Assembly (NCBI GenBank): GCA_016788165.1
Contig: JAEUTH010000016.1
Span: forward strand, 1 to 64,000
DNA: 64,000 bases
Origin: Bacteroidia bacterium
GTDB lineage: Bacteria > Bacteroidota > Bacteroidia > AKYH767-A > OLB10
Direction of reading: 5' to 3'
The notes beneath the pieces were generated by a model. The model was not told where the DNA came from and ran no database searches. It worked only from the letters and a program-made list of their open reading frames with translations. Below, in pieces: positions 22,277 to 63,967 of the stretch. Position numbers and translations under genes: made by a program. Position 1 is the first letter of the stretch. Each line of letters begins with the position of its first letter.

Positions 22277-22912
22277 TTATAGTTTAAACTGATAAATCTT
22301 TTCTAAATCACTTGCCTGACGGTAGCTAACATCTAAGTCCTGAATAATACCGTCTGCAATATCATATACCCATCCATGCACATGTAAAGGTTGGTTGTTA
22401 CGCCAGGCATTTTGCACAATAGAAGTTTTACATAAATCGGTAACCTGTTCTTGTACATTCAATTCAACAAATCGGTTTTCGCGGGCCTTTATATCCTCAA
22501 TTGCCTCCAATTCATCGCTATGCATTCTGTAAACATCTTTTAAATGGCGTAACCAATTATCTATTAAGCCAAATTGTTTATTACCCATTGCCGCAATTAC
22601 ACCACCACAGCCATAATGACCACAAACAATAATGTGTTTTACTTTTAAAACTTCTACGGCATAAGATAATACGCTTAACATATTCATGTCGGTATGTACA
22701 ACCATATTTGCAATGTTGCGATGTACAAATATTTCGCCAGGCCGTGTGCCTGTAACTTCGTTAGCGGGCACACGGCTATCACTGCAACCTATCCATAAAT
22801 ATTCAGGACTTTGTCCTTTGGCTAAGGTTTCAAAATAAGTTGGGTCAAGTTCCAATTGTTTGGCTACCCATTGTTTATTACTGTCTAATAATTTTTGATA
22901 CGATTTTTCCAT
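22277..22912 (-). CDS. Beta-class carbonic anhydrase
   Basis: This 211-residue cytoplasmic zinc enzyme interconverts CO2 and bicarbonate. Zinc ligands are Cys43 (CSDSR), His99 and Cys102 (HYGCGG), and the catalytic Asp45-Arg47 dyad is present. The plant-type signature EYLWIGCSDSRVPANEVTG is intact and the length is normal for the Can type. The gene begins 4 bases after the SulP transporter stop, so they form one operon. Co-occurrence of SulP proteins with carbonic anhydrases is a known pattern for bicarbonate transport, and this favours bicarbonate over sulfate as the substrate of the neighbour. Confidence 0.96.
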   Translation of the reverse strand: MEKSYQKLLDSNKQWVAKQLELDPTYFETLAKGQSPEYLWIGCSDSRVPANEVTGTRPGEIFVHRNIANMVVHTDMNMLSVLSYAVEVLKVKHIIVCGHYGCGGVIAAMGNKQFGLIDNWLRHLKDVYRMHSDELEAIEDIKARENRFVELNVQEQVTDLCKTSIVQNAWRNNQPLHVHGWVYDIADGIIQDLDVSYRQASDLEKIYQFKL

Positions 22913-22916
22913 AATA

Positions 22917-24524
22917 TTAATGTCCTGATGAAATGTAATAATGATTGTTAATTTGATATTCTTCTTTAAAACCTACAAGGGTTAATTTAATTTGCTTTAA
23001 GGGTGCTTTTATGTCTCTAAACTCCTTAATAAACTCCAACACATCAAAGTCTATATAATAAGTTTCTGATGCATTTATAATAACGGTACTGTTTTTAGGC
23101 AAATGATCTAATGATTCGCGAATACTCGCTTTGTTTAAAAAAGATACTTCTTGCGAAAGTTTGATAGTGATTATATCGCCTTCTTTATGTTCTTCTTCAT
23201 GAAAGTAGTACGAGTTTTTAAAATTACCATGTAAAATGGCAATACTGGCCGAAAGAAATCCCACAATAACGCCAATTAGTAAACCTTCGCCACGTACAGC
23301 AGGGACCAAGCCAAATAAATCAATTCCTAAAATTACTGTTACCGTCATAAAGAACGGAATATATTGGTACTTCCCATTTTTAATCATGTCTTTAAAAATG
23401 GAAATTTTACAAAGTTTGTAACCTGTAATAAGTAAAACTGCAGCCAATGCCGACAACGGAATTTTATTAAGTATAAATGGGATGGTTACTACACATACCA
23501 GCAATAAGAATCCATGAAACATGGTTGATAAACGGGTTTTAGCACCTGCATTTACATTGGCACTACTGCGTACAATAACACTTGTTATAGGCAAGCCACC
23601 AATCAAACCGGATAGGGTGTTACCAATTCCTTGGGCAACCAATTCTCTGTTTGTATTGGTTACATTTCTATCGGGGTCAATATTATCAATGGCTTCAATA
23701 CTAAGCATGGTTTCGAGCGAAGCAATTAATGCAATCATTACACCTGTAACCCAAACTTTACTTTCTAAAAAGCCTTCAAAATCGGGCATTTTAAAAAAAC
23801 TGAAAAACTCATGTGCACTTTCGGCTTCGTTTATGTTTACCAAATGGGTGTTATCAATTGCAAATGAGTTTCCAGTAAAATGTAGCAGCTCATTAATTAA
23901 AACAGCTACCGTAACGGCTATTAATGCGCCCGGTATGCCTTTTAATTTGGCTTTAACTTTAGGTTTGTCGCAAATTAAAATTATTGCAATAGATAGCAAA
24001 CAAATTAAAAACACACCTACATTCAGATGCATGATATCTTCTAATATATGATCGCTTTCATCTACCATGATAAACTCTGAAAAATCACCCTTCACATTTT
24101 CATTATAACCAAAAGCATGGGGTATTTGTTTGGCAATAATCAAAATACCAATACATGTGAGCATGCCCTTTATAACACTGCTGGGAAAATAATTTGAAAT
24201 ACCGCCTAAACTGGCCAAGCCCATTGCAATTTGTAAAACTCCGGCTATAACAACAGCACAAAGGAATAATTGAAAACTGCCTACATTTAGTATGGCTGCT
24301 AAAACTAATGCTGCTAAACCGGCTGCCGGTCCACTTACGCTTAAATGCGAAGCACTGAAATAACCAATAATTAATCCGCCAATAATGCCGGATATAATAC
24401 CACTAAAAAATGGAGCGCCACTGGCTAAGCTAATACCTAAACATAAAGGAAGTGCAACTAAAAACACAACTATGCCAGAAGACAAATCGGTTCGCACCGA
24501 TGAAAACATCGAAATTTTTGTCAT
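22917..24524 (-). CDS. SulP-family anion (probably bicarbonate) transporter
   Basis: This 535-residue inner-membrane protein has 10-14 hydrophobic segments. It has the SulP N-terminal pattern RTDLSSGIVVFLVALPLCLGISLASGAPFFSG and the conserved GNTLSGLIGGLPITSVIVRSSANVNAG. A short C-terminal STAS-like domain is present at about residues 440-530 (TVIINASETYYIDFDVLEFI). The substrate is inferred: the next gene, 4 bases away, encodes a beta-carbonic anhydrase, which suits a bicarbonate symporter. No sulfate-assimilation gene is nearby. The start ATG at 24524 fits the family. Confidence 0.92.
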   Translation of the reverse strand: MTKISMFSSVRTDLSSGIVVFLVALPLCLGISLASGAPFFSGIISGIIGGLIIGYFSASHLSVSGPAAGLAALVLAAILNVGSFQLFLCAVVIAGVLQIAMGLASLGGISNYFPSSVIKGMLTCIGILIIAKQIPHAFGYNENVKGDFSEFIMVDESDHILEDIMHLNVGVFLICLLSIAIILICDKPKVKAKLKGIPGALIAVTVAVLINELLHFTGNSFAIDNTHLVNINEAESAHEFFSFFKMPDFEGFLESKVWVTGVMIALIASLETMLSIEAIDNIDPDRNVTNTNRELVAQGIGNTLSGLIGGLPITSVIVRSSANVNAGAKTRLSTMFHGFLLLVCVVTIPFILNKIPLSALAAVLLITGYKLCKISIFKDMIKNGKYQYIPFFMTVTVILGIDLFGLVPAVRGEGLLIGVIVGFLSASIAILHGNFKNSYYFHEEEHKEGDIITIKLSQEVSFLNKASIRESLDHLPKNSTVIINASETYYIDFDVLEFIKEFRDIKAPLKQIKLTLVGFKEEYQINNHYYISSGH

Positions 24525-56860: not shown

Positions 56861-57271
56861 CTACCAAACGTATTGTTTTTTATTCATCAATAATGCCTCA
56901 CCTGTTATGGTTAACTCTTTAGTGTCAACATTAAAAACTTCGGTTTTATAAAGCACTCTGTTTTTTTCAGGAAAAATTTCGGCTACCGTAATAACAGCTT
57001 CATAGTTAACACCGGTAAACATAGGTCGCATAAATTGCATAAGCTGTTTCATGTACACATTGCCATCGGCATATACCGTAGTGCCAAACAATTTTGTAAA
57101 AACGCTACCACCTAAATAGCCGTGTATAATACAACGACCAAACATAGATGCTTTACCTGCAGCTTCGTCAATATGTAAAGGATTGGTATCGCCCGAAACA
57201 CGTGCATAGGTGTTTACATCATCTTGGGTGTAACTAAAGGTGTGCTTAAAAGTATCGCCTACTTGAATCAT
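56861..57271 (-). CDS. MaoC-like (R)-specific enoyl-CoA hydratase (PhaJ-type)
   Basis: This 136-residue hot-dog-fold hydratase begins at the ATG at 57271 (MIQVGDTFKHTFSY); the open frame runs 25 residues further upstream but that part is not family-like. The catalytic signature GDTNPLHIDEAAGKAS matches the (R)-hydratase pattern with Asp28 and His33. Such enzymes add water to trans-2-enoyl-CoA to give (R)-3-hydroxyacyl-CoA, the monomer for polyhydroxyalkanoate (PHA). Its length and its neighbour, a PhaE-like gene transcribed the other way from 57545, support a PHA-related role. A general acyl-CoA role is an alternative. Confidence 0.88.
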   Translation of the reverse strand: MIQVGDTFKHTFSYTQDDVNTYARVSGDTNPLHIDEAAGKASMFGRCIIHGYLGGSVFTKLFGTTVYADGNVYMKQLMQFMRPMFTGVNYEAVITVAEIFPEKNRVLYKTEVFNVDTKELTITGEALLMNKKQYVW

Positions 57272-57464
57272 AATTTTGGGTTTTAAGTTTAATTGGATTA
57301 ATAAAAATGCGAGGTTAGGAAGAAAATAATTTAAGTTTCTAAACAAAAGGACATGTTTTACAATATTTTAACAATCAAAAACAACGACAAAAACCTTTCA
57401 AAAACCAATAAAATAAGCTATTTCAAACCAATTAAAAAGCACTGCTAAATCAATTAACAATAAA

Positions 57465-57497
57465 TTGTTTTAGGTGTGGCAAATAAAACTACTTTTG
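57465..57497 (+). promoter_or_regulatory. Bacteroidota-type promoter of the PhaE-like gene
   Basis: TTG (57465-57467), 22 bases, then TACTTTTG (57490-57497), a perfect TAnnTTTG. The predicted leader to the ATG at 57545 is about 40 bases. The promoter excludes the in-frame GTG at 57476 as start. The spacing and -7 box equal those of the TPR-gene promoter at 7481-7513. Confidence 0.6.
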
Positions 57498-57544
57498 CGC
57501 CCGATTTTAAAACATGGCATAAATGCCGCAAATCAAAACAAAAA

Positions 57545-59389
57545 ATGAACACTAAAACAAGCAACAACAAAAATTTGTACGCCACCTGGGTTGACTCACA
57601 AAAAAAGATGATTGACAGCCTTACTGAATCAACACAGAAATTTACAAAAGACGAAACTGTAAATAATACGATTGAAAAAGGTTCGGCATTGTACAAAAAC
57701 TGGCTTGATAACCAGCTTTCGTTTATGAATGAGCAAACTGATAAAATGCAAAAAAATCCTGCATCAGCTTTGCAACAAGAAGAAATTACCGAAACAGCTA
57801 AAAACTGGATGAAAAATCAAATGGAGCTAACTAAAAGTTTTATGGATTTTTCGATGAATACCATGAAGGAATACATGCAATCGCTTAACAAATCAATGCC
57901 GGTTTTAAATGGCAATGGCGATAAAATGACTAAGATGTTTAATGAGCATGTTGATACATTTAAAAAATGGAGCAATACTTTAAACAAACAAGTTGAAGAA
58001 ATGCTTCAAAATTTTGATAATCAAACTGCTAAAAATGCAATGGCAGGCATGTTTAATCAAACTGATGTTTACAATAAATTTGTTGAGTTGTGGACACCCG
58101 TTATCAAAGCATTACAAACAAACAACTTCAATACCGATTCGTTTAACCAATTAGTTAATCCGGCTCAATTCAAAACATTTATGGATAAAATGTTGGGATG
58201 GAATAAAGAAGCTATGGAAAACTATGCAGGTGCATTCAACTTAAATGGCAATCCGTTTAATGAGTACATGACACAGTTAAGCAACATGAATAAAAACTGG
58301 ATGAATTTGATGCAGCCATCAAACAATCCGGCAAATGATATGATGCAAAACTGGATGAAGTTTACACAAAACCAAACCGGTAACGATTGGATGAAAAACT
58401 GGATGCCTAACAGCAACCAAAATCCAATGGAAATGATGCAACAATGGATGCAAATGTTTCAAACTGCATCGCAAATGAATCAATGGGCTAATCAGTTTCA
58501 AAAATCATTTGGTTTGGAAAATTTTCAAAATGATTGGACTAAAAACTGGAATCAAATGATGGGTAATGATGTAGCTAAAAATTTTAGCAACATGCAAAAC
58601 CAATGGATGGATATGTTTAAAAACTTTTCGCCTTCGGCCGATATGTTTAAAGGCATGCCCAATTACATGGACATGTTTAAAAACTACAATGCCATGGACA
58701 TGTTTAAAAACATAAGCCAGCCTATGGATATGTTTAAAAACCTACCTGCTATGAATGGTGAAGTGTTTGAAAACATAATGAAAACTTATACCAATATGTT
58801 TGCAGCCAGCGAACAAGCTTTTGGTCCTATGTTTAGAATGATGACGCCAAATGCTACAAAAGCTAACATGGAATTGATGAAAAGCGTAATGCATAAAATG
58901 AATCAATACCAGATTAAAAATGCCGAAATGCAATATATGACCTATGAAGCTGGTGTTAAAGCCATGCAGGAAATAGGCAATAAAATGCAAGATAAAATGG
59001 CTAAAGCCGAAGGTTATAAATCAATGAATACCTTATACACTGAGTGGTTAAACACCAGCGATAAAGCTTTAGTTGCTTTATACGAAAGCGATGCTTACAG
59101 CAAAATACAGGCTGAGGTTGCTGCATTAGCTCATGGTATTAAAAAAGATGTTGAAGTGATAATGGAAAAAATGATGGTTAACATTCCGGTAATTACACGT
59201 ACTGAAATGGATGATACCTATAAAACCATTTATGATTTAAAGAAAAGAGTTAAAGAATTAGAACGCAGTTTAGAAAGCAAATCGGTTGCAAAAGCAGTTG
59301 CTGTTGAAACTGAAATGCCTGAAGTTGCAAAAGCAGCGCCAACTAAAAGTGTAGCTAAAGCACCTGTAAAAAAAACAGGACGTAAATAA
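57545..59389 (+). CDS. Enlarged PhaE-like PHA synthase subunit/phasin-like protein
   Basis: This is a 614-residue cytoplasmic protein. The last part (about 450-580) matches the class III PHA synthase subunit PhaE: WLNTSDKALVALYESDAYSKIQAEVAALAHG, then a helix ending MMVNIPVITRTEMDDTYKTIYDLKKRVKELERSL. PhaE is normally about 350 residues; here the N-terminal 450 residues are a long Asn/Met/Trp/Lys-rich helical region with many NWM or QWM phrases. Residues about 355-400 hold five 9- or 10-residue repeats based on MDMFKN. The tail (KSVAKAPVKKTGRK) is Lys/Ala-rich like the DNA-binding tails of PhaF-type phasins. No phaC is next to it. Probable role: granule surface or synthase activation; moderate certainty. 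Confidence 0.75.
   Translation: MNTKTSNNKNLYATWVDSQKKMIDSLTESTQKFTKDETVNNTIEKGSALYKNWLDNQLSFMNEQTDKMQKNPASALQQEEITETAKNWMKNQMELTKSFMDFSMNTMKEYMQSLNKSMPVLNGNGDKMTKMFNEHVDTFKKWSNTLNKQVEEMLQNFDNQTAKNAMAGMFNQTDVYNKFVELWTPVIKALQTNNFNTDSFNQLVNPAQFKTFMDKMLGWNKEAMENYAGAFNLNGNPFNEYMTQLSNMNKNWMNLMQPSNNPANDMMQNWMKFTQNQTGNDWMKNWMPNSNQNPMEMMQQWMQMFQTASQMNQWANQFQKSFGLENFQNDWTKNWNQMMGNDVAKNFSNMQNQWMDMFKNFSPSADMFKGMPNYMDMFKNYNAMDMFKNISQPMDMFKNLPAMNGEVFENIMKTYTNMFAASEQAFGPMFRMMTPNATKANMELMKSVMHKMNQYQIKNAEMQYMTYEAGVKAMQEIGNKMQDKMAKAEGYKSMNTLYTEWLNTSDKALVALYESDAYSKIQAEVAALAHGIKKDVEVIMEKMMVNIPVITRTEMDDTYKTIYDLKKRVKELERSLESKSVAKAVAVETEMPEVAKAAPTKSVAKAPVKKTGRK
58607..58750 (+). repeat. In-frame 30-base repeats coding MDMFKN units
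   Basis: Five copies of a unit containing GA(T/C)ATGTTTAAA begin at 58610, 58640, 58670, 58697 and 58727, with spacing of 30, 30, 27 and 30 bases. All are in frame and code for (M)DMFK(N/G) followed by four or five variable residues. Confidence 0.9.
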
Positions 59390-59566: not shown

Positions 59567-61402
59567 TTAGTGCACAAAATGTTTTAACCAATAATGCAAT
59601 GTAGCAATACGCCATACTAAAACTGCATTACTATTATCGCCCTTACTGTATTGATTAACTATGGTTTTAACCTTGTCAACATTTAGAAACGATAAAACAT
59701 CATAATCTATTTGCAGCAAATGTTGCAAAGGCCCGCGCAGCCATTTGTTTTCGCCCGGTGTTACAAAACCCTTTTTGTCCTTTCTTTCAGTAATAGCTTT
59801 TGGCAAAACATCGCGCAATGCTTCACGCAAAATATGTTTGGTTGACAGCCCTTGTATTTTATCGTCATTTTGAAAACTAAAAGCCAACTCAACCAAACGA
59901 TGATCGAGAAATGGCACACGCGATTCGATTGAAAAAGCCATACTGTTTCTATCCTCATAATGTAACAGTGATGGCAAACTGGTTGTTTGAATGAGGTTGA
60001 TTAAAAAACCATCCATACCTGCATGTGCATCTAATTGAAATGGCGCATCATGTATTGCTCTACCTAAAAATGGGAAATAATTTTTGTATTCAAATTCGTA
60101 AAGTTGCTGTTCTGTCCGAATGGTGCATAAAGCTGATTTGGCAAAATGTATGGCCTTTTGTTTGAAATTAAAGCCAAATTGATTGGTAATTTGTTTGGTT
60201 GTACTAAATGCGCTGCTGTATTCATTTTTGCGCAACATATCGGCAATTAAACGGTAATAGGTATGCATATAACCTCCTAAATATTCATCGCTTCCTTGCC
60301 CATCTAACACAACTTTTATTTTTTGTGATGCAATAAGTTGCATTAAAAAATATTGCGAAATAAATGAAGAGCCGGTTGCAGGCACGTCAGCATGATAAAG
60401 TGCATTGTGAAAATGTGCAGCCACTTCATCATCTGTTGGTTTTTTAAAATAGGCTTCTATTGCCGGATATTTATGCAGTACTTCATTTATGAAGGGTCTT
60501 TCGTCCACATCGCCTTTGCCATCGTAATATATGCTGAACGACTTGTATGGCATACTTTTGTTTAAATGCTGTACCATGCTTACAATGGCACTACTATCAA
60601 TACCTCCACTTAAACAACTGCCTACCGTAACATCGCTGCGCATGTGTAATTGAATGCTATCGGCAAATGCCTGCTTAAACATTTGAACTTTATCCTGAAA
60701 CGAGGCAATAATTTTTGAAGGTTCTATTTGCCAATAACATTTTATTTCGGGTTGTAACTGTTGGTGTAAATGCAAAATCATATAATGCGCTGCTGGCAAT
60801 GATTTTATGCATTGCAAATAGGTTTCATCTTTATAGCAAAGCCAGCCTAATTGCAAACCTCTTAAAGCTTGTGTGTAATTTACCGCGCCATTATAAACAG
60901 GCATTTGTTTAAGGGCTTTATACTCGCTCGAAAAGTAAAACCGGTTATTGGTTAAGATGTAATTAAAAGGTTTAATACCAAACCTATCGCGGGCAATAAA
61001 AAGCTGATGTTGTTTTGCATCATATAATACAAATGCCCACATGCCCACAAAGTAGTTTACACATTGGTGGCCCCAGTATAAATATGCTGCTAAAATTACT
61101 TCGCTGTCTGATTGTGTTGTAAAACTATAACCCGCTTGTTTAAGTTGATTTCTGAGCTCTATGTAATTATAAATTTCGCCATTAAACACCAGGGTTGCAT
61201 GTGCATAGTGCATGGGCTGGTTGGCATGCGTACTTAAATCAATAATACTTAAACGGTTATGACCTAATATCAGATGCTGCTGTTGCCAGGTATCGGTTGC
61301 ATCTGGGCCACGGTGCGTTGTGGTATGCAGCATTTGATTGGCATAAGCCAACCCCTGTTCAGGACTTACACTTGCATCAAACAAACCGGCTATGCCACAC
61401 AT
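59567..61402 (-). CDS. Asparagine synthase-type amidotransferase of a polysaccharide cluster
   Basis: This is a 611-residue glutamine-dependent amidotransferase. Cys2 (MCGIAGL) starts the glutaminase domain; RGPDATDTW and LGHNRLSIIDL follow. The synthase PP-loop is CLSGGIDSS near residue 267, then VVLDGQGSDEYLGGY and SIESRVPFLDHRLVEL. It differs from the first copy at 15209 in length and context: it follows glycosyltransferase and wecB genes (15-base gap), so it more likely forms an amide on a sugar, for example a uronamide, than free asparagine. It is the last gene of its operon within the window. Either role is possible by sequence. Confidence 0.9.
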   Translation of the reverse strand: MCGIAGLFDASVSPEQGLAYANQMLHTTTHRGPDATDTWQQQHLILGHNRLSIIDLSTHANQPMHYAHATLVFNGEIYNYIELRNQLKQAGYSFTTQSDSEVILAAYLYWGHQCVNYFVGMWAFVLYDAKQHQLFIARDRFGIKPFNYILTNNRFYFSSEYKALKQMPVYNGAVNYTQALRGLQLGWLCYKDETYLQCIKSLPAAHYMILHLHQQLQPEIKCYWQIEPSKIIASFQDKVQMFKQAFADSIQLHMRSDVTVGSCLSGGIDSSAIVSMVQHLNKSMPYKSFSIYYDGKGDVDERPFINEVLHKYPAIEAYFKKPTDDEVAAHFHNALYHADVPATGSSFISQYFLMQLIASQKIKVVLDGQGSDEYLGGYMHTYYRLIADMLRKNEYSSAFSTTKQITNQFGFNFKQKAIHFAKSALCTIRTEQQLYEFEYKNYFPFLGRAIHDAPFQLDAHAGMDGFLINLIQTTSLPSLLHYEDRNSMAFSIESRVPFLDHRLVELAFSFQNDDKIQGLSTKHILREALRDVLPKAITERKDKKGFVTPGENKWLRGPLQHLLQIDYDVLSFLNVDKVKTIVNQYSKGDNSNAVLVWRIATLHYWLKHFVH

Positions 61403-61417
61403 ATAAAAGTTATTTGA

Positions 61418-62557
61418 TTAAAGTTTTTCGATAATGGTTTTACAAATAAATTCCGCTGCATGGCCATCGCCAAAAATGGGCGGAAACTGAAGCGAAATAT
61501 CATTACTATAATAATATGCGAATGCATCTTCGATACGCGCAATGTTTGCACCGGCTAAAATAGCTGAACCACATGCAACCAACTCAGTCCATTCGGTTTG
61601 TTGGCGCAATATGATGCAAGGTTTTTTAAAGAAATAGGCTTCTTTTTGTACGCCTCCACTATCGGTAACAATCAGTTTTGCATTGCTTTCGAGCGCTATC
61701 ATATCTAAAAAAGAAACCGGTTCGATTATTTGTATCAATTTATTGTCAACTATGCTTTGATACAATTCGGGCGTGAGTGATTTTGGTAACAAGTGTGCTG
61801 TACGTGGATGTAATGGCAATACAAATGAAACTTGATACGCAAGCGATAAATTTTGAATGGCCTGAAATAAATTATTTAGTGCATCGGCATCATCGGTATT
61901 CTCTGCTCTGTGTACAGTAACCAATACATACGGCTTATTAATTTTATTTAATACGGTTGATTTACGATTTGCTTCTGCTTCAAAGAATAAGCTGTTGTCG
62001 TACATCACATCGCCACAATGCACAATAAATGCATTGTCGTTACTATAAGGTGGTAAAGCATTTTTATTAAAGCCTTCGTTAATTAAATTATTGTAACCGG
62101 CCACAGTTGGCGAAAACAATAAGGTAGCGCAATGATCGCATAAAATGCGGTTAATTTCTTCGGGCATTTTTTTATTAAACGACCTTAGGCCGGCTTCAAC
62201 ATGTACGATGGGTATATGCAGTTTTGATGCAGCAATGGCACCGGCTAATGTTGAATTGGTATCGCCATAAACCAATAATGCATGTGGCTTTTCGGCTACT
62301 AAAATTTGTTCAATACCTTCAATCATTTTTGCGGTTTGAATACCATGTGAACCTGAACCTACCTGCAAATTGTAATTACTGGCAGGTATGCGTAACTCAT
62401 CAAAAAACACTTGCGACATATTGTTGTCGTAATGCTGACCGGTGTGCACAATGACTTCGGCAATCTTATCGGCAAAACTATTTTTTATGGCGCGACTTAA
62501 AGCAGCGGCTTTAATAATTTGTGGGCGAGCACCTATAACAGTTACAATCTTTATCAT
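61418..62557 (-). CDS. wecB: UDP-N-acetylglucosamine 2-epimerase (non-hydrolysing)
   Basis: This 379-residue cytosolic enzyme converts UDP-GlcNAc to UDP-ManNAc for surface polysaccharides. Motifs: TVIGARPQIIKAAALSRAI at the N terminus, HTGQHYDNNMSQVFF, VYGDTNSTLAGAIAA, HVEAGLRSFNKKMPEEINR, and the C-terminal VTDSGGVQKEAYFFKKPCIILRQQTEWTELV. The length is normal. It lies 4 bases after the glycosyltransferase stop and 15 bases before the second amidotransferase, showing a single operon. Confidence 0.96.
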   Translation of the reverse strand: MIKIVTVIGARPQIIKAAALSRAIKNSFADKIAEVIVHTGQHYDNNMSQVFFDELRIPASNYNLQVGSGSHGIQTAKMIEGIEQILVAEKPHALLVYGDTNSTLAGAIAASKLHIPIVHVEAGLRSFNKKMPEEINRILCDHCATLLFSPTVAGYNNLINEGFNKNALPPYSNDNAFIVHCGDVMYDNSLFFEAEANRKSTVLNKINKPYVLVTVHRAENTDDADALNNLFQAIQNLSLAYQVSFVLPLHPRTAHLLPKSLTPELYQSIVDNKLIQIIEPVSFLDMIALESNAKLIVTDSGGVQKEAYFFKKPCIILRQQTEWTELVACGSAILAGANIARIEDAFAYYYSNDISLQFPPIFGDGHAAEFICKTIIEKL

Positions 62558-62561
62558 TTCT

Positions 62562-63860
62562 TTAAGAGGTCATTTGATTTAAAACTTCAACCAATTGTTG
62601 CGTTAGGTTTTTACGAGAATAACGGTCAACGCTTTGTGAAGTAACTTTAAGTTTATTGTTTTTAAACTGTTCATAAAAAGCACTTACAGTAGCTTTCATT
62701 TTTTCTTTATCACCAAAGTTAACCACTACCCCACTTTGTGTTTCATTGATAATTTTTGCGGCATCACCATCCGCAACACCAATGCACAGAATTGGTCGTT
62801 TAGCAGCAAGATATTCAAATAATTTTCCGGTTAAAATGCCTTTTGCATTTGGAGTATTGTTTACCAGCAACAATAAAATTTGTGAACGTTGCTGCTCTAT
62901 TATCACTTCATTATGCTTGAGATATTCAATTTTACGAAGGTTGTCTGCAAGGCCAAGCGCATCAATTTTATCAATAACAGTGAAATCAATTTTACCGGCC
63001 AACTTAATTTCAAGGTCTGCTTTAAAGACCGGATTCCCGGCAATCATTTCGCTCAACACTTCCCATAATAATTGTGGATTTCGATCTTTATTTAGCGACC
63101 CGATGTGTGCAATACTGAATTTTTTATCCTCTATAACAACTTCACTACTTTTATCCGCATCATCAAATCCATTGGTGATAACATCCACATTTCGGTTAGC
63201 AATAATTTGAAATTCCTTAGCCATGGTTGAGCCAATGGTGATTACCCGACTTGCTTTTTGCAACACTTCCTTTTCTAATTTGTGGTGTTTTTTGTCGGCA
63301 GTTTTAGTAAGGAGAAGATCCTTATAAAAGTCAATATTAGTCCATGGGTCACGAAAATCGGCCAACCAAGGCAAGTTGTTTTTTTTGTGGATTTGCATGG
63401 CGATTAAATGCATGCTATGTGGCGGACCTGTAGAAATCAGGGCATCCACCTTATTTTCTTTCAGATAAGATGTTAAGAATTTTACCGAAGGCTTTACCCA
63501 AAAAACGCGTGCATCGGGAATAAAAAAATTGCCACGTATAAACACAGAAATTTTTTCTGTCAGTTTTGGTTTTTTGTTTTCAGAAATAAAACCGGCATTG
63601 ATTTTTTGATGAGGTTTTTGGCCGATAAACTTTTTATACAAATCGTAAGGCTCCCAAATGGGTTGCTGCAGCACTTCAAGATTTGAAGGCAAATCTTTTA
63701 ACAACGAAGCATCATCAACAGGATTTTCGGGATTGGAAGGCGTGTACACAACAGGCTCCCAACCAAAGTTGCGCAGGTACTTTACAAACTTAAGCCAACG
63801 CTGCACACCGGCACCTCCACTTGGTGGCCAATAATATGTAATGATTAGAACTTTTTTCAA
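62562..63860 (-). CDS. Family 4-type glycosyltransferase
   Basis: This is a GT-B fold glycosyltransferase of about 432 residues. The core begins KKVLIITYYWPPSGGAGVQRW (Rossmann loop), with STGPPHSMHLIAMQIH, WLADFRDPWTN and the C-terminal sugar-nucleotide part GILTGKLFEYLAAKRPILCIG. The start is uncertain. The TTG at 63860, just before KKVLII, is used; the longer frame begins with a TTG at 63950, which lies inside the hairpin terminator of the upstream gene. Together with wecB and an amidotransferase it builds a surface glycan. Sugar specificity is unknown. Confidence 0.88.
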   Translation of the reverse strand: MKKVLIITYYWPPSGGAGVQRWLKFVKYLRNFGWEPVVYTPSNPENPVDDASLLKDLPSNLEVLQQPIWEPYDLYKKFIGQKPHQKINAGFISENKKPKLTEKISVFIRGNFFIPDARVFWVKPSVKFLTSYLKENKVDALISTGPPHSMHLIAMQIHKKNNLPWLADFRDPWTNIDFYKDLLLTKTADKKHHKLEKEVLQKASRVITIGSTMAKEFQIIANRNVDVITNGFDDADKSSEVVIEDKKFSIAHIGSLNKDRNPQLLWEVLSEMIAGNPVFKADLEIKLAGKIDFTVIDKIDALGLADNLRKIEYLKHNEVIIEQQRSQILLLLVNNTPNAKGILTGKLFEYLAAKRPILCIGVADGDAAKIINETQSGVVVNFGDKEKMKATVSAFYEQFKNNKLKVTSQSVDRYSRKNLTQQLVEVLNQMTS

Positions 63861-63933
63861 ACTGAAACTTGTTTCGATGCTTCGTTGATGAAGAAGCCTG
63901 TCTGTTTGTTTTCGTGGTGGCGAATATATGCCA

Positions 63934-63967
63934 ATAAAAAAACCTCCCAATTTCTTGAGAGGTTTTT
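63934..63967 (-). terminator. Terminator of a gene mostly beyond the right edge
   Basis: On the minus strand AAAAACCTC pairs with GAGGTTTTT through an inner TTG/CAA and a short loop, then seven T. It lies just after the possible stop at 63980 and before the glycosyltransferase start. Confidence 0.75.

Follow-up and report, generated by a model that had tools for sequence, protein, structure and literature searches.

In class III polyhydroxyalkanoate (PHA) systems, PhaC polymerises (R)-3-hydroxyacyl-CoA, PhaE activates PhaC, and PhaJ makes that substrate from enoyl-CoA. Other PHA producers split synthase activation, granule coating and nucleoid tethering among separate proteins, and the PhaJ of Aeromonas has a class I synthase, rather than a class III enzyme, as its partner. 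The PhaEC systems of Allochromatium vinosum and cyanobacteria combine a TIGR01836 PhaC of ~350 aa, with a Cys-Asp-His triad, and a separate PF09712 PhaE, for which PMC8312272 gives a size of 20-40 kDa. In haloarchaea (Haloferax mediterranei and others) phaJ is linked to the class III synthase in a phaJ1-phaR-phaP-phaE-phaC cluster (PMC9049629), and in Ralstonia eutropha the synthase activator PhaM has a lysine-rich C-terminal tail (PMC3556143, PMC9049629). PHA has been recorded in Bacteroidota as well: class III PhaC is listed for 13 Bacteroidetes genomes in PMC8312272, and passages of PMC9304909 report PHA seen by FISH-Raman in two Saprospiraceae genera, Ca. Vicinibacter and Ca. Defluviibacterium, with phaABC predicted; these passages are silent on phaE, phaJ and gene order.

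The locus described here lies in the window, by which we mean the whole stretch of 64,000 nucleotides of Bacteroidia bacterium DNA that was analyzed, and consists of a phaJ-like hydratase gene and a phaE gene in divergent orientation; the first-pass annotation had placed both there, and both were confirmed. We consider it highly probable (roughly 0.87) that these genes belong to a class III (PhaC plus PhaE) PHA storage system that occupies two separate loci and includes a divergent PhaJ. The basis for this reading is family membership, residues, co-occurrence and synteny, from which we infer complex formation, the substrate, the direction of PhaJ and the polymer made. In the proposed scheme, a 349-aa PhaC encoded on another contig, C46, would be the polymerase with its Cys-His-Asp triad, the window PhaE would probably bind and activate it and sit on the granule, and PhaJ would hydrate trans-enoyl-CoA (crotonyl-CoA, from beta-oxidation) to the (R)-3-hydroxyacyl-CoA that PhaC uses. 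As in A. vinosum and cyanobacteria, a PhaC of that size with the same triad is found together with a separate PF09712 PhaE, but the window's phaE and phaC are not adjacent and its PhaE is 614 aa long (relatives 424-547 aa). As in the haloarchaeal cluster, phaJ is linked to class III phaE and phaC; the haloarchaeal genes, however, form one cluster with a phasin and a regulator, whereas the present phaJ and phaE point away from each other, phaC often lies apart from them and PhaE is much longer. No phasin or regulator gene was seen beside the phaJ/phaE pair. Ca. Vicinibacter and Ca. Defluviibacterium are likewise Bacteroidota, and PHA was seen in them.

The hydratase gene (56861..57271, - strand, stop at 56861) encodes a stand-alone protein of 136 aa with a single MaoC domain, predicted to be an (R)-specific enoyl-CoA hydratase. 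Its start is most likely ATG 57271, which gives 136 aa as in relatives, and the upstream TTG 57346 was set aside as an alternative start. The PF01575 match scores 57.5 bits (cut-off 27), the best solved relatives by sequence are the (R)-specific enoyl-CoA hydratases 5cpg and 1iq6, and the (R)-hydratase signature with its Asp/His pair, noted in the first-pass annotation, is indeed present, with Asp28 and His33 lying within GDxNPxH and Ser56 also in place. The protein resembles 5cpg and the PhaJ of Aeromonas caviae (1iq6) in being a stand-alone, single hot-dog MaoC protein with an Asp/His/Ser site. Between phaJ and phaE lies an intergenic region of 273 bp (57272..57544). It contains a candidate Bacteroidota-type -7 element, TACTTTTG, at 57490-57497, directed towards phaE, and we can only infer from this single match in AT-rich DNA that it may serve that gene.

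The phaE gene (57545..59389, + strand, as are all of its parts below) encodes a putative class III PHA synthase subunit of 614 aa without cysteine, and its start, ATG 57545, is backed by an alignment (A2) with 25 relatives. The profile search named in the first-pass annotation gave a significant PF09712 match, 60.4 bits against a gathering cut-off of 25.7, which covers profile positions 7-310 of 311 and is the only one in the 3.34-Mb genome. The annotation had likened the C-terminal 130 residues to PhaE; the likeness stands, but the matched stretch is longer (residues 246-572; 58280..59260), with the strongest conservation C-terminal. PF09712 is also matched by all 25 aligned members, and together with synteny this rules out a low-complexity artefact. 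The window PhaE missed the cut-off of NCBIfam TIGR01834 (39.5 vs 154.95 bits), as did three other PhaEs of the phylum (43-79 bits), two of which adjoin phaC. Since those three also miss it, TIGR01834 appears, from these scores, to be tuned to other lineages and to leave out the PhaE type of this phylum.

Alignment A2 separates what the protein has in common with its relatives from what is its own. Its N-terminal part (57545..58219), with recurring W-x3-Q helices (atWvdsQ, NWldnQ, NWmknQ), is common to the long Bacteroidota PhaEs, and W88 and Q92 are invariant in the alignment. Across the 25 relatives conservation is highest towards the C-terminus, where a helical core (58760..59263) common to all of them ends in TRTEMDDTYKTIYDLKK (PVITRTEMDDTYKTIYDLKK in the window protein). 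A lysine-rich, basic tail that is predicted to be disordered follows (59312..59386), with a net charge of +6 over the last 16 residues, and such a tail ends every Bacteroidota PhaE relative in a comparison that left out the rows read on the wrong strand, which lacked the core motif and were <260 aa long. Three inserts are window-specific and missing from all 25 relatives: insert 1 (about residues 226-293; 58220..58423), which is rich in Asn, Met, Gln and Trp, insert 2 (about residues 303-342; 58451..58570), and insert 3 (about residues 365-397; 58637..58735), which has a repeated MDMFKN unit. All three are low-complexity, abound in Asn, Met and Gln, and consist in part of short repeats, MDMFKN among them. 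The size of the protein, which had been called giant and is indeed large, is owed mostly to inserts within an already long Bacteroidota PhaE type and not to a new domain. At the DNA level, short degenerate repeats at 58277-58745 encode NWMxx and MDMFKN units, and these look like recent insert growth.

The AlphaFold2 model of PhaE is all-helical with low mean confidence (pLDDT 57, pTM 0.42). Its confident parts are limited to roughly residues 170-220 and 411-540 (pLDDT mostly 74-91 over the latter, 56-71 over the motif helix), and the N-terminal part is helical at mostly low confidence. All Foldseek matches to the model had E>0.1 and were meaningless, and neither phmmer nor the 25-member profile found a relative with a solved structure in the PDB. 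A search for related loci by peptide patterns with PhaE alone found none, and the low complexity of the sequence, which suits such patterns badly, is the probable reason.

The first-pass annotation had observed that phaC is absent from the window and that the synthase must be elsewhere, and the genome search that it had proposed located one. A class III PhaC of 349 aa is encoded at C46:144884-145933 and is the sole TIGR01836 match in the genome (412 bits, cut-off 365), with 134.5 bits to the class I and 56 bits to the class II model; the catalytic residues Cys143, Asp295 and His324 are present. Given this PhaC and the significant PF09712 match, neither of the two outcomes that the first-pass annotation had named as refuting its reading came about. 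Beside phaC on C46 stand genes that resemble those of a secreted metalloprotease and of a rhodanese/thioredoxin, and phaC therefore lies outside any pha operon; with phaE on a different contig, the two are unlinked in this genome. Two other searches in the same proposal came back empty. No protein of the genome exceeded the PhaB cut-off (TIGR01829), the best candidate (258 vs 302 bits) being a FabG that is over its TIGR01830 cut-off, and the search for a PF06850 depolymerase gave only a marginal match within PhaC itself.

These results bear on the direction in which PhaJ works. Because no dedicated PhaB was found in the window genome, we favour PhaJ as the monomer supplier, and FabG could help. 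PhaJ might instead act mainly in mobilisation, where it would dehydrate the (R)-3-hydroxyacyl-CoA that the polymer releases and pass the resulting enoyl-CoA to beta-oxidation, with the monomer coming from FabG or another reductase and with PhaC and PhaE still making the polymer. Such a role has been reported for PhaJ1 of Haloferax mediterranei (PMC9049629), FabG is at hand, and in one clade a PhaB over its cut-off occurs alongside the same PhaJ, so that supply in that clade would not have to depend on PhaJ alone. But the search for PF06850 found no recognised depolymerase, and in a genome without a dedicated PhaB, PhaJ is the natural supplier; we regard a mainly mobilising PhaJ as a serious rival, though a rather unlikely one. 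The clade in question is related to Taibaiella, and in five of its loci (L132, 9057-9797; L154; L164; L170; L176) a PhaB-like SDR/reductase gene is divergent from phaC. The SDR of L132, the one tested of the five, is over the TIGR01829 cut-off (368 vs 302 bits). This clade has a nearly complete phaB-phaC-phaE-phaJ cluster.

PhaE and PhaC were identified in the same genomes. In a sample of the phylum, PhaE was over cut-off in 8 of 395 genomes and PhaC in the same 8, and this perfect co-occurrence is the strongest single argument that the PhaE is functional and more than some stray helical protein. On these numbers it was fair of the first-pass annotation to call PHA metabolism untypical of the phylum, yet PHA was already on record there (PMC8312272, PMC9304909). 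Within the taxonomic order of the window organism, PhaC or PhaE was over cut-off in 1 of 42 genomes, that of the window, a distribution that fits horizontal gain as well as it fits repeated loss. When named genomes were scanned with alignment A1, a pair of PhaCs, 80 loci came up, almost all of them from Bacteroidota, including Chitinophagaceae, Taibaiella, Flavipsychrobacter, Saprospiraceae and MAGs. At L137, a PhaC with 71% identity to that of the window genome is encoded on a contig assigned to a Phycisphaerales (Planctomycetota) MAG, which reflects either misbinning or horizontal transfer. In a different family of the phylum, L057, L058 and L059 (G075, G054 and G172) have a full operon of small helical proteins, a PhaE of ordinary length (375 aa), PhaC, an SDR reductase and a thiolase-like gene.

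Whole-genome searches of the 42 genomes with a close PhaC relative identified PhaE in all of them and a stand-alone MaoC protein, 60-72% identical to the window's, in 41. The hydratase and PhaE genes were adjacent and divergent in 34 of these genomes, adjacent on one strand in two and on different contigs in five. Since the genomes are related, the counts do not stand for independent events, yet the pair recurs in several separate PhaC clades, and chance is excluded as an explanation by the 42/42 and 34/42 conservation. The position of phaC is more variable. Both phaE and maoC lie near it in 22 of the 80 loci, commonly as maoC(-) phaE(+) phaC(+); among the 44 well-flanked loci, 15 have this linkage (e.g. 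L148, L110 and L165) and 29 have no phaE inside the phaC flanks. Linkage of phaC switches at least 4 times on the PhaC tree, and the isolate SSA2 (L100), whose PhaC is the nearest to the window's, retains the divergent phaJ/phaE pair in its genome. Judged by gene order, the divergent phaJ/phaE pair is the conserved unit of the putative Bacteroidota class III PHA system, with phaC either adjoining or detached.

The same data bear on whether the MaoC hydratase is merely an unrelated neighbour of phaE, serving for example surface polysaccharide genes. The asparagine-synthase-like, wecB-like and glycosyltransferase genes at 59567-63950, which abut phaE, are probably a surface polysaccharide cluster, and in genome G004, which has neither phaC nor phaE, a stand-alone MaoC hydratase with 42% identity (L090:5381-5788) lies inside a glycosyltransferase/wecB cluster, where it perhaps has a role in supply for sugar acylation. 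The divergent adjacency to phaE in several clades and the 41/42 co-occurrence with PhaC/PhaE argue strongly the other way, as does the finding that most other genomes of the window's order, all without phaC and phaE, have only a fused, PaaZ-like MaoC; on the adjacency and co-occurrence we rejected the polysaccharide assignment, which we consider highly improbable. Elsewhere in the window (22277-24524), a carbonic-anhydrase-like gene adjoins a SulP-type transporter gene, as judged by eye from the translations, and the two are a plausible bicarbonate uptake pair.

A further question is what PhaE itself does. The first-pass annotation had allowed that it may have another job, such as that of a phasin, and the protein could be primarily a structural, phasin- or PhaM-like granule scaffold in which the synthase-subunit role is secondary or lost. 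Its length, helical character, lack of cysteine, repeated W-x3-Q helices and lysine-rich tail are in keeping with a scaffold, as is its fast evolution (identity ~27-36%, vs 68-78% for PhaC). However, PhaE accompanies PhaC from one genome to the next, no other PhaE occurs in the window genome, a class III PhaC without PhaE would be unusual, and the best conserved part of the protein is the PF09712 C-terminal region. A mainly structural role therefore seems improbable to us, and less likely than that of a synthase subunit, although the two roles are compatible. More speculatively, a single long Bacteroidota PhaE may join PhaC activation (C-terminal PF09712 core), phasin-like granule coating (low-complexity inserts together with the W-x3-Q helices of the N-terminal part) and PhaM-like nucleoid tethering (lysine-rich tail), which we offer as a doubtful suggestion; the likeness to PhaM is one of tail composition. 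If true, a PhaE with three jobs could let phaC drift off while phaJ and phaE stay co-regulated.

PHA in Bacteroidota is thus under-appreciated, not new. In the open-access literature subset that was searched, we found no description of a recurrent divergent phaJ/phaE pair with a detachable phaC in Bacteroidota, nor of long PhaEs with a lysine-rich tail. Operon-based phaEC searches would miss a detached phaC, and class III genes escape amplification by the class I/II phaC primers with which one survey of strains was made (PMC7464897). The divergent phaJ/phaE arrangement would provide a simple genomic marker by which PHA storage could be traced among the Bacteroidota of freshwater and wastewater, and the set of long, rapidly evolving PhaEs offers a test of how PhaE activates PhaC.
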